Origin: Bacteroidaceae bacterium
GTDB lineage: Bacteria; Bacteroidota; Bacteroidia; Bacteroidales; Bacteroidaceae
Assembly: GCA_017507105.1 (NCBI GenBank)
Contig: JAFWBM010000012.1
Span: forward strand, 1 to 64,000
DNA length: 64,000 nucleotides
Direction: 5' to 3'
Positions 50,489-55,579 of the stretch are shown here, in pieces. Below the pieces are notes generated by a model. It had not been told where the DNA came from. It made no database searches and saw only the letters and a list, made by a program, of their open reading frames with translations. A program made the position numbers and the translations under genes. The stretch's first letter is position 1. Each line of letters opens with the position of its first letter.

Positions 50489-50896
50489 TTACCAAAACCA
50501 GCCCTTCTTTTTCTTCTTCTCATCGTTGTTCTCTGCGAGGGCCTCTCTCCATGTCTTGTTGTTCTTTACCATGTCGTATATCATTCCCCAATCGGGTATT
50601 CCGCCAATATTGCGGTCATCAATGAATAGTTCGGCATCCAGCTTGCAGTAACCTTTACCATCGGCTACATTCTCCTCGGGGAAATTCTTGTTAACAGCAT
50701 AAAACTCTACACCTCTTTCGCGGCACCATTTTACAGCCTCTTCAAGTAAGGGACCTCTTCTCACAGTCCATAATATAAGTTGATGTCTCTCCTTTATGAG
50801 CATCTTGAGTGTTGCTGTAGCAAACGGAATCTCTTTTCCAATCTCGGGATACTTGTGTTCTACGATAGTACCGTCAAAGTCAACTGCAATAATCAT
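50489..50896 (-). CDS. small HAD-like phosphatase
   Basis: 135 residues. MIIAVDFDGTIVEH carries the nucleophile and acid Asp (DxDGT), LWTVRRG the second box and ELFIDDRNIGG the Mg2+-binding acidic pair. It has no cap domain and a Lys-rich C-terminal tail, like the small BT0820-type HAD proteins of Bacteroides. Substrate unknown. It has its own -7-like box just upstream, separating it from the ncRNA candidate at 51083-51294. Confidence 0.85.
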   Translation of the reverse strand: MIIAVDFDGTIVEHKYPEIGKEIPFATATLKMLIKERHQLILWTVRRGPLLEEAVKWCRERGVEFYAVNKNFPEENVADGKGYCKLDAELFIDDRNIGGIPDWGMIYDMVKNNKTWREALAENNDEKKKKKGWFW

Positions 50897-51082: not shown

Positions 51083-51294
51083 AAAAGCGGGAAGCCTTAT
51101 ATTTGCTCCCCGCCTTTTACAATTAGGCTTAAGATAACATTTTTTCTGCGATTGTCTTTGGCGGTGTCTCGCGACAACTGTGTGGTGATAATACAAATTG
51201 ACAATCGGCTTAGATAAGTTTCAATTATTATATGGTTTATTCTTCTGTGGATATCTCTATTGCAAAAATATCAACTCATAAAATCTGATATCCA
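51083..51294 (-). ncRNA. candidate structured small RNA with own promoter and terminator
   Basis: About 212 bases on the minus strand with no frame longer than about 10 codons. Three stem-loops follow in transcript order. P1 is a 10-bp stem (51287-51296 with 51246-51255) at the 5' end. P2 is an 8-bp stem (51200-51207 with 51149-51156), extended by four pairs after a two-base bulge, enclosing a TGTC-GCGA-GACA mini-hairpin with a GNRA-type loop (51165-51176). P3 is a 9-bp terminator stem (51105-51113 with 51087-51095) followed by TTTT. The promoter at 51300-51330 puts the start at the base of P1. Class unknown; 6S-like or a trans-acting sRNA are possibilities. Confidence 0.55.
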
Positions 51295-51299
51295 CATTG

Positions 51300-51330
51300 C
51301 AAAGATATAGATGCTTCTCTACTCCTGCAA
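51300..51330 (-). promoter_or_regulatory. predicted promoter of the small RNA
   Basis: Minus-strand TTG (51328-51330), 20 bp, TATCTTTG (51300-51307). The nearest gene it could otherwise serve begins 400 bases away behind a terminator. Confidence 0.6.
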
Positions 51331-51397
51331 TCATACTTTTTGTGATTTTGGTAGCTTTGGTATAGCAATATATTGCTATTTTTACATGCTATCTGTA

Positions 51398-51434
51398 AAT
51401 TTCGGGCACCCTATATTGAAGGGTGCCCGAAATT
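51398..51434. terminator. terminator downstream of the His-rich gene
   Basis: A perfect 15-bp stem (51398-51412 with 51420-51434) and a 7-base loop, 38 bases past the stop of the 51472-51870 gene. Confidence 0.75.
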
Positions 51435-51471
51435 ATAACCTAAAAATTTATAACTCTCTTGCATACTACAT

Positions 51472-51870
51472 TTAGTCAGATAGAATGGCTGCCAATGCTG
51501 CTATACCTACAACTATTGTTGCTGCTTCGACTGCACCATTGCAATGGTTATGGTGAACTACTACAGGACGATGGCATGATGCGTGATGTTTTTTATGTTT
51601 TACAATGTGATGATGGTGCATGTGTGCATGTTTGTGTGCATTATTATGTGCTGCTCCATTGAACCTCTTGCCATCTTTGTTCTTATTTCCTTTTTTGCCT
51701 CCTTTTCTTTCTTTATAGACATCACCTTTCTTCTCTTTTCCTTTTCTCTCCTTTCTGTCGATTTTTTCAGTACGTTCCTTGTTATCTCCACGTTTAAAAT
51801 CTTGTGCCGAAACTTGTGCAGACATGAACATTGCGCTCATAATGACTGCGATAATCATCATCTTTTTCAT
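51472..51870 (-). CDS. small exported His- and Lys-rich protein, putative metal binder
   Basis: 132 residues in four parts: signal peptide (about 1-22, VSAQ), a highly charged Lys/Arg/Glu/Asp segment (23-70), a His cluster (75-109) with 15 His in 35 residues plus Cys99 and Cys110, and a hydrophobic Ala/Val/Ile tail (113-131). The His cluster suggests Ni, Zn, Cu or Co binding in the periplasm; the tail could insert into a membrane. No family recognised. It has its own predicted promoter and terminator. Confidence 0.7.
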   Translation of the reverse strand: MKKMMIIAVIMSAMFMSAQVSAQDFKRGDNKERTEKIDRKERKGKEKKGDVYKERKGGKKGNKNKDGKRFNGAAHNNAHKHAHMHHHHIVKHKKHHASCHRPVVVHHNHCNGAVEAATIVVGIAALAAILSD

Positions 51871-52007: not shown

Positions 52008-53117
52008 CTATGGCCTGTACATGTTTATCTGTGGAGTTCTGATGCCGGGCTTGAGTTCTCCTCCTATATATATAATATTGTTCTTGTATGCAATCATAAT
52101 TGCTCCGGCACGCGCAAAGGTGCGGTCGCTCTTCAGGAGTTTCCAGCTATTCTCATCAATGTTATACTCTATAAGATGGGGATTGAAACGGTACCATTCT
52201 GCAGGGTGATGCATGTACTCCTCTTTGCTTGTAAGAGAATATGTACCTGATATTGCATCTGTAAAGATCTCTTTGTCTACACCGCCTGCAGCTATTATAG
52301 TGTTTTTATCAAACAATAGAGCCGTACCACCCGATAGCGAGATGGCTCTATCACTATCCTCCTTGAGAGTGACATCTGTCAGTTGTTCCCATCTGTTTTC
52401 GGCAAAGAGATAGCGTATACCATCGCTATGTGTTATTGCCCTGCCAATGCTATCGGCAGGGGAGAAACCTCCCCATATGTATAGAGCCTTTTCGTTTGCA
52501 GCGCATACTGGCTGTACACGTGCACGTGACGGGGGTGTTGGCAATTGAGCCCATTCATTTGTTCCATCAGAGAGGTTAAGAGCGAATACTATGTTTGATG
52601 GTTCCCCGTTAATGTTTCCACCTATAATATATATAAAATTGTTAGCAATGGTTGCAGTTGCATTGTCAACAGTGTAGGGTAGTGAGGGTAGGGTATCTAC
52701 TTTGCAATCATCGGACAAATCTATGCTGTATACGGCAGATGACGCTCCTTTACTGTTTGTACCTCCTGCAATAATCAGTTTCTCTCCAACTATAAGTGAT
52801 GCACCGTAGGCCGATGGTTCAGGAAGGACTCCTGCTTTATGCCATATAAGTGTGTCTCCTATGGCTGCTTTGTAAATTCCTTGATAGAAACGTTTGCTGC
52901 CACCTTGCGAGGCCGGTGTGTCGGGGAAATTACAACCACCTGCAATATATAATGTGTCTCGGTATACTGCGGCATAACAGGCCGAGACACCCATTTCGAA
53001 TCCCTGCTCGAATGGTGGCATTGTGCCAAGCTCCTTGATATAATTGCTCGCGCTCTTGTAATTGTTGGTGCAACCCAAGAGCGCAATAGCAAGAATTATA
53101 GGATATAACCTTTTCAT
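52008..53117 (-). CDS. cyclically permuted mutarotase (NanM-like, Kelch propeller), lipoprotein
   Basis: 369 residues with a lipoprotein signal (ALLGC, Cys16). Kelch-type repeats are visible as LYIAGGCNF, LIIAGGTNS, IYIIGGNIN, LYIWGGFSP and TIIAAGGVD, forming a six-bladed propeller. The family includes NanM, which interconverts anomers of N-acetylneuraminate. It is the last gene of the sialic acid operon, and its ATG overlaps the final base of the transporter stop, giving translational coupling. A periplasmic role before import is likely. Confidence 0.85.
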   Translation of the reverse strand: MKRLYPIILAIALLGCTNNYKSASNYIKELGTMPPFEQGFEMGVSACYAAVYRDTLYIAGGCNFPDTPASQGGSKRFYQGIYKAAIGDTLIWHKAGVLPEPSAYGASLIVGEKLIIAGGTNSKGASSAVYSIDLSDDCKVDTLPSLPYTVDNATATIANNFIYIIGGNINGEPSNIVFALNLSDGTNEWAQLPTPPSRARVQPVCAANEKALYIWGGFSPADSIGRAITHSDGIRYLFAENRWEQLTDVTLKEDSDRAISLSGGTALLFDKNTIIAAGGVDKEIFTDAISGTYSLTSKEEYMHHPAEWYRFNPHLIEYNIDENSWKLLKSDRTFARAGAIMIAYKNNIIYIGGELKPGIRTPQINMYRP

Positions 53118-54382
53118 TATTCCATGTTTATGGTTTTAGGACGAAGCATTGTAATCTGTATTACTAGTGACAATACAGTTACTCCACCAAGCAAAGCGAA
53201 ACCTACACCCAATGAGAGGCTCCCGAGCACTGTTGTGATGGCTGCACCTCCAAGGACACCTGCCATATTGATGAAACCATATGCAGTGGCACGTTGGCGC
53301 GAAGGAATGAACTGACATAGTATAGGCATGTTGTTGGTGTCGAAGAAACCATATCCGATACCGAAGCAAAGTATGGCAAGAACCACTGCAAAAAGGCTGT
53401 TGCCAAGTCCCATGAATACGAGTGACGGTACAATGAGTGCAAGACCTATACAACTTGTATATACACGTCCGCGTACATTGCTCTGTACCCATTTGTCCGA
53501 GAGCTTACCACCAATCATGGCGCCAATGAATGATGCTCCTGCAAGGCTTATCACTGCAACAGGACCTGCATAATTCATTGCAATGCTAATATCCATTCCC
53601 CAATTATTGCTTATGACATTTGCCAGCAACTCGGGCAACCAGTTCTTTGTAGCCCATCCCGGCATACTTAATGTGGTAAAGACAAAAAGAACAGCCCAAA
53701 AAGCCATATTGCTGAGGATAAGCATAATGCTTTTTACTACGCTTGGTTGATTGGGATCAACAACAACATTTTCTGCACTCTTTTTCTCGCGTCCCGGGTC
53801 GCTTATGAAGAGTATGAGTACTACGGAATATATCATTCCCACAAGTCCGCAAATGAGGAATACACTGTGCCAGTTGAGCAACCCCGAGAAAATAGAGCCG
53901 AAACCTCCGGCAATCTGTCCCAGATATAATCCTGTCATGTGAATACCTATAGCCATTGAACGTGTCTTACCACTATGTATATCGGCAATGAGTGAAAGCG
54001 CTGCAGGAATATATAACGCCTCGCTGAATCCCATGATGGCACGTAGCACGTATAACTCTTTGTATGTATCTACATATCCCATAAGGAATGTTACTGCCGA
54101 CCATACAAAAAGGCTGCCGACAATTAGTTTCTTACGGTTCAGACGGTCGGCTATAGCTCCCGATATGGGACTCATCAGGCCATATATCCACATGAATGCA
54201 GCCATAAGAGCACCCCATCCCCAGGGGCCTGTATAGCTTGTTGCTACCTCTACAATGTCTTCTGACATTGCAAATCGCATGGTACTCAACATCTGACGGT
54301 CCATGTAGTTGAGGAAAGCTACACCCGATAGCAATATAACTACCAACCAAGGGTACCATTTCTTTTCTGTAATCTTACTCAT
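53117..54382 (-). CDS. nanT: MFS sialic acid transporter (NanT type)
   Basis: 421 residues, 12 membrane helices, MFS signature in GAIADRLNRKKLIVGS and a second loop GGKLSDKWVQSNVRGR. The N-terminus (WLVVILLSGVAFLNYMDRQ) is typical of the ACS/ExuT-like branch, to which the Bacteroides and Tannerella NanT belong. Inferred to import N-acetylneuraminate across the inner membrane because of its place between the epimerase (15-base gap) and NanM. Confidence 0.85.
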   Translation of the reverse strand: MSKITEKKWYPWLVVILLSGVAFLNYMDRQMLSTMRFAMSEDIVEVATSYTGPWGWGALMAAFMWIYGLMSPISGAIADRLNRKKLIVGSLFVWSAVTFLMGYVDTYKELYVLRAIMGFSEALYIPAALSLIADIHSGKTRSMAIGIHMTGLYLGQIAGGFGSIFSGLLNWHSVFLICGLVGMIYSVVLILFISDPGREKKSAENVVVDPNQPSVVKSIMLILSNMAFWAVLFVFTTLSMPGWATKNWLPELLANVISNNWGMDISIAMNYAGPVAVISLAGASFIGAMIGGKLSDKWVQSNVRGRVYTSCIGLALIVPSLVFMGLGNSLFAVVLAILCFGIGYGFFDTNNMPILCQFIPSRQRATAYGFINMAGVLGGAAITTVLGSLSLGVGFALLGGVTVLSLVIQITMLRPKTINME

Positions 54383-54397
54383 CTCTTTTTATTGTTC

Positions 54398-55579
54398 TTA
54401 TAGTTTGTTTGTCAATATGTTGCACAAATCGTAGCTCTTTATGAGCATACGTGGTATGTGGAACGGTCCTTTGAATATATTACCTTTTGCGGGCTGTGCA
54501 ACAGTACCGTCACGATGCAGATATCCGTACCACTCACCCATCTCCTCATCGGGGAAGTGTGCATAGGTCCATTCGCTTATCTGTTTGTGCCATATAAGGT
54601 ATTTATCGTCACCGGTAGCTTCATAGGCATATAGTGTTGCTATGATAGCCTCTGTCTGTGGCCACCAAAACTTCATATCTTGTGAGTAATCTTGTGGAGG
54701 CAGATTGCGGCAGTCGCGGAAGTTTATTATGCCGCCGTATTGTTTGTCCCAGCCCCATTCCCACGACCAGTCTAGAATCTGAAGTGCTTGTGCTGTAATC
54801 TCTTTATCCCATCCTCGGTTCTTAGCCTCTTCGAGCAGGAACCATGCAGTCTCAATACAATGACCGGGATTTATAACTCTACCGTTTATGGTGTCGATAA
54901 ATTCGCCATTGGGACCAACCATCTCAAGCAGTGCTTTGAATTCGGGTTTCATGAAATCCTTAAGTGACGATATAGATTCTTCTATTTGCAAATTTAGTTC
55001 CGGATCTTGAATAACCTCGCGTATACGTGATGCTGTATTTATCAGAATCATTACCAATGAATGTCCCTTGGCTTGCAAGGCTTCCAGGTATTTAGGTTCC
55101 ATATATCCGGGTGTGGCTACAAAGCGACGTATATCCATAAAGAGTTTAAGCGCCTTCTCTGCATAATTGTAGTCTCCCGATGCCTTTGCATACTCGGCCA
55201 TAGCAATTGCTGCAAAACTCTCCGAAAATACGTAGCGACGTTTGCGCAGTGGTGTTCCATCAGCCATTACTTCAAAATACATCCTACCGTCGCTGTCGAA
55301 ACAGTGTGCCTCAATGAAATCGATGGTACTTTTTGCTGCTTCCAGCCACAATGGATTCTTCTCTACTGTATTATATGCAAAACTGCATACAAAAGCGAAA
55401 CGTCCCTGAAACCACACCGATTTTGTACTGTCCATTAACGAGCCGTCGCGGTCGAGGCATGTATATACACCACCGTTTACGCGGTCCAATCCGTTCTTGA
55501 GCCAGAAAGGCATAATGTTCTCGGTAAGGTCCTTGCGGTATTTGTCACTCCAGTCGGTAAGATATTCTTTCCAATTCAT
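54398..55579 (-). CDS. nanE: N-acylglucosamine 2-epimerase (AGE family)
   Basis: 393 residues with an (alpha/alpha)6-barrel. RYVFSESFAAIAMAEYAKAS, NPGHCIETAWFLLEEAK, WGWDKQYGGI and KFWWPQTEAIIATL carry the AGE active-site His and Arg residues. It converts N-acetylmannosamine released by the lyase to N-acetylglucosamine; in Bacteroides this AGE-type enzyme replaces the usual NanE kinase route. Second gene of the operon, 64 bases after nanL/nanA. Confidence 0.9.
   Translation of the reverse strand: MNWKEYLTDWSDKYRKDLTENIMPFWLKNGLDRVNGGVYTCLDRDGSLMDSTKSVWFQGRFAFVCSFAYNTVEKNPLWLEAAKSTIDFIEAHCFDSDGRMYFEVMADGTPLRKRRYVFSESFAAIAMAEYAKASGDYNYAEKALKLFMDIRRFVATPGYMEPKYLEALQAKGHSLVMILINTASRIREVIQDPELNLQIEESISSLKDFMKPEFKALLEMVGPNGEFIDTINGRVINPGHCIETAWFLLEEAKNRGWDKEITAQALQILDWSWEWGWDKQYGGIINFRDCRNLPPQDYSQDMKFWWPQTEAIIATLYAYEATGDDKYLIWHKQISEWTYAHFPDEEMGEWYGYLHRDGTVAQPAKGNIFKGPFHIPRMLIKSYDLCNILTNKL

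Follow-up and report, generated by a model that had tools for sequence, protein, structure and literature searches.

Between a gene for a small, secreted-looking His-rich protein and a gene for a BT0820-family HAD phosphatase, the window (the whole 64,000-nucleotide stretch of a Bacteroidaceae genome analyzed here) contains a gap at positions 51083 to 51330. Does this gap hold a gene of its own, and if so, what might that gene do? An earlier note, made from the letters of the DNA, had proposed an unannotated structured small RNA on the minus strand. Our analysis indicates that the gap is very probably the gene for a structured small regulatory RNA (sRNA), whose transcription we infer. As we read it, the sRNA is a stand-alone gene of ~215 nt that is co-regulated with ferrous-iron uptake, and we consider this reading, taken whole with its regulator, its signal and its action by base pairing, to be reasonably probable.

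Anatomy of the RNA unit

The source assembly comprises 2.1 Mb in 52 contigs. The minus-strand unit spans ~51295 to 51083 and is preceded by the promoter that the earlier note had described, a TTG element separated by 20 bases from a -7 box (Table 1). The promoter pattern of the RNA family matched the window exactly once, at the RNA unit; when up to two mismatches were allowed, there were two matches against 1.4 expected. A sigma-70 scan, which does not cover Bacteroidetes promoters, returned 13 sites in the window against 12.1 in shuffled sequence.

The 220-nt minus strand folded at -49.6 kcal/mol, compared with -38.5 ± 3.8 kcal/mol for shuffled sequences (0 of 200 as low; z = -2.95), while the plus strand of the same unit gave z = -2.0. 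Three hairpins had been claimed. P1 indeed starts at or beside the predicted first base but is larger than first described, with an outer stem of 10 pairs (TGTGGATATC/GATATCCACA). P2 forms as proposed, CGATTGTC pairing with GACAATCG around the TGTC-GCGA-GACA mini-hairpin. P3 had been called a canonical terminator; the hairpin is strong, but its T run is merely TTTT before ATGCAT, and P3 is absent from the list of our terminator scan, which demands 5 T in 8. Both neighboring genes are separated from the unit, as the earlier note had stated, by a terminator-like hairpin behind the His-rich gene and by a -7 box of the HAD gene's own.

Table 1. Coordinates of features at the RNA locus (positions in the window)
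Feature	Position	Strand	Basis or remark
Gene for small, secreted-looking His-rich protein	51472..51870	minus	4 of the 10 carrier genomes have a relative close to the RNA gene
Terminator-like hairpin behind the upstream His-rich gene	51402..51437	minus	read directly
palA, perfect inverted repeat TAGCAATATATTGCTA, 75 bases before TTTG of the -7 box	51363..51378	minus	proposed activator site common to feoAB
palB, AATCAC-N7-ATGATT, overlapping the -33 TTG	51329..51347	minus	clear in 4 of 10 members
-33 element TTG	51328..51330	minus	read in sequence
-7 box TATCTTTG	51300..51307	minus	RNA start predicted at ~51295
P1, 5' hairpin of the RNA	51246..51296	minus	fold, strand-pairing test
Unpaired A+U-rich linker with AACCA	51210..51245	minus	fold; ACCA or GCCA in most members, by eye
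P2, arms 51207-51200 and 51156-51149, conserved core inside	51149..51207	minus	strand-pairing test
UAUUAUC, conserved and unpaired	51187..51193	minus	comparison of members
UGUC-GCGA-GACA mini-hairpin, GNRA loop	51165..51176	minus	conservation and covariation
AAUGUUAUCUUAAGCC, conserved and unpaired	51126..51141	minus	comparison of members
P3, terminator-like hairpin with TTTT	51083..51115	minus	fold, sequence
-7 box of the HAD gene, TACTTTTG	50932-50925	minus	read directly
BT0820-family HAD phosphatase gene	50489..50896	minus	adjoins the RNA gene in this genome only, of those seen

At the Rfam gathering threshold, the whole window yielded one tRNA elsewhere and nothing in the gap, where every match had an E value of at least 0.58. 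Judged from its sequence, the predicted RNA is a new family of a known kind, without a match in Rfam.

Two observations concern the surrounding genes. The His-rich protein, which matched no Pfam family, belongs to a fast-evolving protein family whose copies stand in close groups of two or more in five genomes (G003, G011, G022, G032, and G033). Farther along the window, at 52008-55579, lie genes for an N-acetylneuraminate epimerase-like Kelch protein and an MFS transporter, adjoined by a 393-aa protein that by eye resembles N-acylglucosamine 2-epimerase; these genes likely serve sialic-acid use, and the Kelch-MFS pair stands beside the His-rich gene in nine other loci.

Relatives of the RNA and conservation of its pairing

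A nucleotide search with the RNA unit against 61 genomes, including its own, found no convincing relative, only two weak order-level matches (E ~9e-4). The HAD gene, by which the nearest named relatives are Bacteroidaceae assemblies, largely of ruminant and deer hindgut origin, failed as an anchor for relatives because its neighborhood is not conserved. The His-rich gene served instead: nhmmer on 30 surrounding loci returned three diverged copies of the RNA (E = 2e-6, 6e-5, and 0.003), and a covariance model, R1, was built from these copies and the window's core. With R1, the RNA anatomy was found in 10 of 44 genomes of the genus, 4 of these matches being the model's own training set. Four further members had E values of 6e-5 to 0.005, and two weak matches (0.19 and 0.87) were kept because promoter, core, and terminator-like hairpin were all present on inspection; a second model, which includes all ten members, scores these two at 1e-5 and 6e-5 by construction. 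Among the other 34 genus genomes, whose assemblies are partly incomplete and in which 150 candidates were scored per genome, the best E value was 2.7, and six weak matches had neither hairpin nor promoter.

A family-wide model search with 12 candidates scored per genome found the RNA in 7 of 399 genomes, and an exact pattern found it in 4 of 399, all of them in this genus. Since few candidates were scored per genome and the pattern recovers only 4 of the 7 carriers drawn, missing the window's own member, absence outside the genus is not firmly shown. In a single-protein tree, built on HAD from 30 of the 44 genus genomes, one side of a branch (93/92) consists of the ten carriers.

All ten members have the promoter TAnnTTTG followed by YANNGTG, 93 to 124 bases before the core, and a strong terminator-like hairpin behind it. 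MAFFT misaligned the helices on the longer members, and the helices were therefore tested by strand swapping, using fixed stretches on either side with no selection of helices, among genomes that are related to each other. The strands of P1 paired at a mean of -15.2 kcal/mol within the same genome, compared with -10.7 kcal/mol when swapped (permutation P = 2e-4), and those of P2 at -12.2 compared with -8.8 kcal/mol (P = 4e-4). The effect is an average: out of ten partners, a genome's own strand came first in only 5 of 10 rows with P1 and in only 4 of 10 with P2, which is weakest in L146. The mini-hairpin was paired in 95% of 60 cells, with both-side changes at two pairs (reached by 60 of 500 shuffles) and a covariation score reached by 7 of 500. 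Lack of stem conservation in relatives had been named beforehand as evidence against an RNA; by the permutation tests on P1 and P2, the stems are kept with changed letters. In addition, three stretches appear both conserved and unpaired, namely ACCA in the linker, UAUUAUC, and GUUAUC..AAGCC.

A site common to the RNA gene and the feoAB operon

In 8 of the 10 carrier genomes, the RNA gene adjoins a gene for a FeoA-FeoB fusion (feoAB, ferrous-iron transport). The two genes are divergent in six (L146, L147, L149, L151, L152, and L153), with 240 to 298 bases from the feoAB start codon to the TTTG of the RNA promoter, and feoAB lies downstream on the same strand in the other two (L145 and L148). 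In the two remaining members, those of this genome and of G006, the 3-kb locus contains no feoAB. In this genome, feoAB is found on another contig (G000:C47:16859-19252, the copy on which the domains were checked), and because the two genes lie on different contigs here, the link was out of reach of the earlier note. Behind feoAB, the operon of this genome encodes a hemerythrin protein and then a 199-aa regulator with a GerE domain, and the same order was found in 6 of 7 relatives' stretches, the seventh ending inside feoAB. The hemerythrin protein is related to the Fe-S repair family RIC at a score below the cutoff (48.7 of 204.7 bits), and the GerE domain of the regulator resembles those of NarL and VraR.

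All ten members have an inverted repeat, palA (consensus TAGCAACATGTTGCTA), upstream of the RNA promoter, 74 to 76 bases ahead of the TTTG in the -7 box. At least 10 of its 12 letters are present in eight members, and the site is weak in L153 (9 letters) and L148 (8 letters); among random 150-nt stretches from other loci, 0.5% attain 10 of 12. We then scored the feoAB promoters with a weight matrix trained on the ten RNA sites alone. Eight of nine feoAB loci contained a site scoring 12.0 to 15.7, placed 73 to 75 bases upstream of TTTG in the predicted feoAB -7 box, and a score of 12 was reached by 0.4% of 1,500 random 215-nt stretches of the window's own genome. The feoAB promoter of L152 (G001) was without palA (best score, 7.3). 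Those of L149 and L151 have an additional site at -43, which in L151 outscores the site at 73 to 75 bases (15.7 compared with 12.1).

By itself palA is not specific: 91 sites scored above 9 in 0.895 Mb (43% of the assembly), among which the feoAB site ranked about ninth. Scanning the same 0.895 Mb for palA sites that scored at least 8 and stood 72 to 77 bases before TAnnTTTG, with a matrix that included the feoAB sites, returned three: this RNA (22.4), feoAB (15.5), and one without a listed gene start (11.9). Other spacings between palA and TAnnTTTG gave a mean of 1.5 pairs per 6-nt bin, compared with 3 at 72 to 77. The common site and its spacing make it likely that the RNA and feoAB are under shared control.

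A second repeat at the RNA promoter, palB (also given as AATCAC-N7-GTGATT), lies 44 bases before TTTG; it is clear (11 to 12 of 12 letters) in four of the ten members and altered or absent in the others. Separately, the predicted feoAB -7 box sits within an inverted repeat of its own, approximately ATTTTGC-NNN-GCAAAAT, in L254 (G000:C47), L145 to L149, and L151 to L153, with a longer gap in L152; it looks like a putative operator of a promoter-blocking repressor.

The sRNA could be real and its iron link no more than an ancestral neighborhood, palA being common by descent from one divergent regulatory region and the task of the RNA being unrelated to iron. The two genes are divergent in six of the eight feoAB-linked genomes, and over the 240 to 298 bases from the feoAB start codon to the TTTG of the RNA promoter, copies of palA could serve one gene only. 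Nor are the feo start regions predicted targets of the RNA: its pairing with the feoAB start region was no better than with 634 other gene starts (fractions, 0.17 to 0.59 in 9 genomes), and its pairing with the hemerythrin or GerE starts was generally no better than background (0.06 to 0.98; 7 genomes, 220 starts), six of the seven hemerythrin starts being approximate. Against this explanation, the two genes of the window's own genome lie on different contigs and have both kept palA, at -75 (RNA) and -73 (feoAB), and in L145 and L148, where feoAB lies downstream of the RNA gene, feoAB has a palA copy of its own. We regard it as unlikely that the iron link is only an inherited neighborhood. MntR was considered as the palA binder and set aside; in the part of PMC4805248 available, Porphyromonas gingivalis MntR did not bind a feoB1 promoter.

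Other identities considered and the proposed role of the RNA

Among known sRNAs of the order, BTnc231 (RF04180) is similar to the window RNA in being a stand-alone gene with a TAnnTTTGCA promoter and a GG-NN-GUC-GNGA-GAC-NN-CC hairpin, which the Rfam structure likewise encloses in further pairs, with a terminator at the end. Under RF04180, the L153 member reaches 33 bits, with an E value of 3.6e-5 when 361 bases were searched and of 0.0028 when 27.6 kb were. This is, however, far under the cutoff of 80.4, which none of the 44 genus genomes exceeded, and only 1 of the 10 members was matched. Moreover, other genomes contain sub-cutoff matches of up to 36 bits, and the hairpin was missing from the ones fetched at places other than true copies. 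The Rfam structure has no 5' hairpin, the BTnc231 hairpin runs directly into the T run in eight copies, and model R2 finds nothing in eight true BTnc231 loci. Distant kinship of the two RNAs is conceivable; that the window RNA is a distant relative performing the same task is very improbable in our view. In the BTnc231 loci themselves (L174 to L181), the first ~70 bases are nearly unchanged across eight Bacteroides genomes and the remainder varies, a sign of strong constraint on the 5' part. BTnc231 has been validated by Northern blotting in Bacteroides thetaiotaomicron, according to the available portion of PMC7366714.

The unit could also be a small mRNA or a dual-function RNA with a short peptide. 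The earlier note was wrong that no reading frame exceeds about 10 codons on the transcribed strand, since TTG-started frames of 48 and 35 aa are present there, the longest ATG frame having 3 codons; ATG frames of 41 and 88 aa occur in L145 and L146, and in L144 to L147 a frame reads ARH or RHP across the mini-hairpin. The common letters are, however, those of the conserved hairpin, the start, length, and end of the frame differ among the ten members (two longest frames per member, compared by eye), and pairing is kept. A coding role is thus highly unlikely. A conserved frame had likewise been named as evidence against an RNA, and no whole frame is kept among the ten members. With stems kept despite changed letters, and with promoter and terminator-like hairpin in every member, the proposal of an unannotated structured small RNA is supported.

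We also considered the 6S RNA of this genus, which would bind RNA polymerase. A 6S RNA has its ends joined by a long closing helix and contains a central bubble; the ends of the window RNA instead form separate hairpins, three in all, and there is no long closing helix. Its presence in 10 of 44 genus genomes would likewise be odd for 6S. The models RF00013 and RF01685, a check suggested by the earlier note, found no 6S RNA in the 44 genus genomes, and the role is to that extent vacant. Among 14 controls, however, RF01685 matched none and RF00013 matched five, with no Bacteroides among them, and as the models also fail in the Bacteroides control, their silence says little. We consider this identity more improbable still. 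Although a 6S RNA of Bacteroides is reported in the accessible part of PMC7366714, both models were silent in Bacteroides ihuae, and 6S RNA in Bacteroidales seems poorly covered by them. Least probable of all is a cis-acting leader or attenuator of the HAD gene: the unit is on the same strand and has a terminator-like hairpin upstream of HAD, but ~190 bases and a separate -7 box intervene, none of the other nine members has HAD next to the RNA gene, and fetched HAD loci elsewhere were without a copy of the RNA.

We return to a separate sRNA gene controlled together with feoAB. Because the feoAB operon encodes a NarL-type regulator and palA has the 7-2-7 form of NarL-type operators (TAGCAAC-AT-GTTGCTA, at a fixed distance), which makes it a candidate site for such a protein, the simplest reading would be that this regulator activates feoAB and the RNA together. 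Site shape, geometry, and neighborhood put the chance that the GerE protein is the regulator slightly above even. The receiver-like N terminus of the regulator (L240:15546-16145) seems, by eye and by motif, to be without the usual acidic pair and phosphorylated aspartate, and its signal need therefore not be phosphorylation. The NarL half-site is TACYYMT; the half-site of palA is unlike it, and palB, at the RNA promoter, departs from the 7-2-7 form. The available excerpt of PMC7419079 describes activation of Escherichia coli ogt by NarL from 7-2-7 sites at -44.5 and -77.5, and palA and palB are centered close to these positions, at ~-76 and ~-43 from the RNA start, itself an estimate.

In the mechanism that we propose, a Bacteroidales -33/-7 promoter would be regulated through palA, with a NarL/LuxR-type protein from the feoAB operon as its likely regulator, activating from ~-76. 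Iron shortage or nitrosative/redox stress would then be the condition in which the RNA is made, along with the proteins for ferrous-iron uptake and hemerythrin-type repair; it is the pairing of ferrous-iron uptake with an Fe-S-repair-like protein that suggests iron shortage or nitrosative stress as the signal. P1 would protect the 5' end, P3 would end the RNA, and the RNA may act in trans, with its conserved unpaired stretches (the ACCA linker, UAUUAUC, and GUUAUCUUAAGCC) as the segments that base-pair. For base pairing, which we take from the usual way of such RNAs, we put the chances at even.

RyhB and PrrF are iron-regulated sRNAs of Proteobacteria. They are sRNA genes tied to the control of iron uptake, and the window RNA would similarly be expected to retune iron use. 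The comparison is one of role, not of sequence or structure, and control of the window RNA resembles a NarL-type activator at ~-76 rather than a Fur box. Hemin-responsive sRNAs, a known neighbor of this idea, have reportedly been found in P. gingivalis. Among the matches listed in the open literature on iron- or feo-linked sRNAs, none was a feo-linked sRNA of Bacteroides, and the main text of a study of Bacteroidetes under iron deficiency gives no motif and does not mention feoAB (PMC10434189). The nearest idea is SnoA (BTnc284) of B. thetaiotaomicron, a stress-induced regulatory RNA beside a stress gene: in the part of PMC13370916 available, it is nitrite induced, lies beside a stress gene and the regulator HcpR, and has effects when iron is also short. 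By that description SnoA runs antisense to the hcp promoter, and its action is interpreted as being on the promoter DNA, whereas the window RNA has a gene of its own next to feoAB. GibS and other intergenic sRNAs of B. thetaiotaomicron resemble the window RNA, as far as the accessible part of PMC7366714 describes them, in having their own -7/-33 promoter, a terminator, and a conserved unpaired stretch; GibS is tied to N-acetylglucosamine and the window RNA to feoAB, and the window RNA is without an Rfam match.

Tentatively, and with rather less than even confidence, we suggest that the RNA may play a RyhB-like role in Bacteroidales for ferrous iron or nitrosative stress, switched on by a feoAB-encoded NarL-type regulator and not by release of Fur. 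Uptake, cluster repair, regulator, and sRNA would then form one circuit that arose a single time, within a clade of this hindgut genus. The RNA would also be young, its members having been seen in a single clade of a single genus. The signal is known for few sRNAs of Bacteroidales. Here the predicted promoter is joined by a predicted operator whose spacing is fixed, by a candidate regulator, and by a putatively co-regulated operon, so that the signal would be directly testable.
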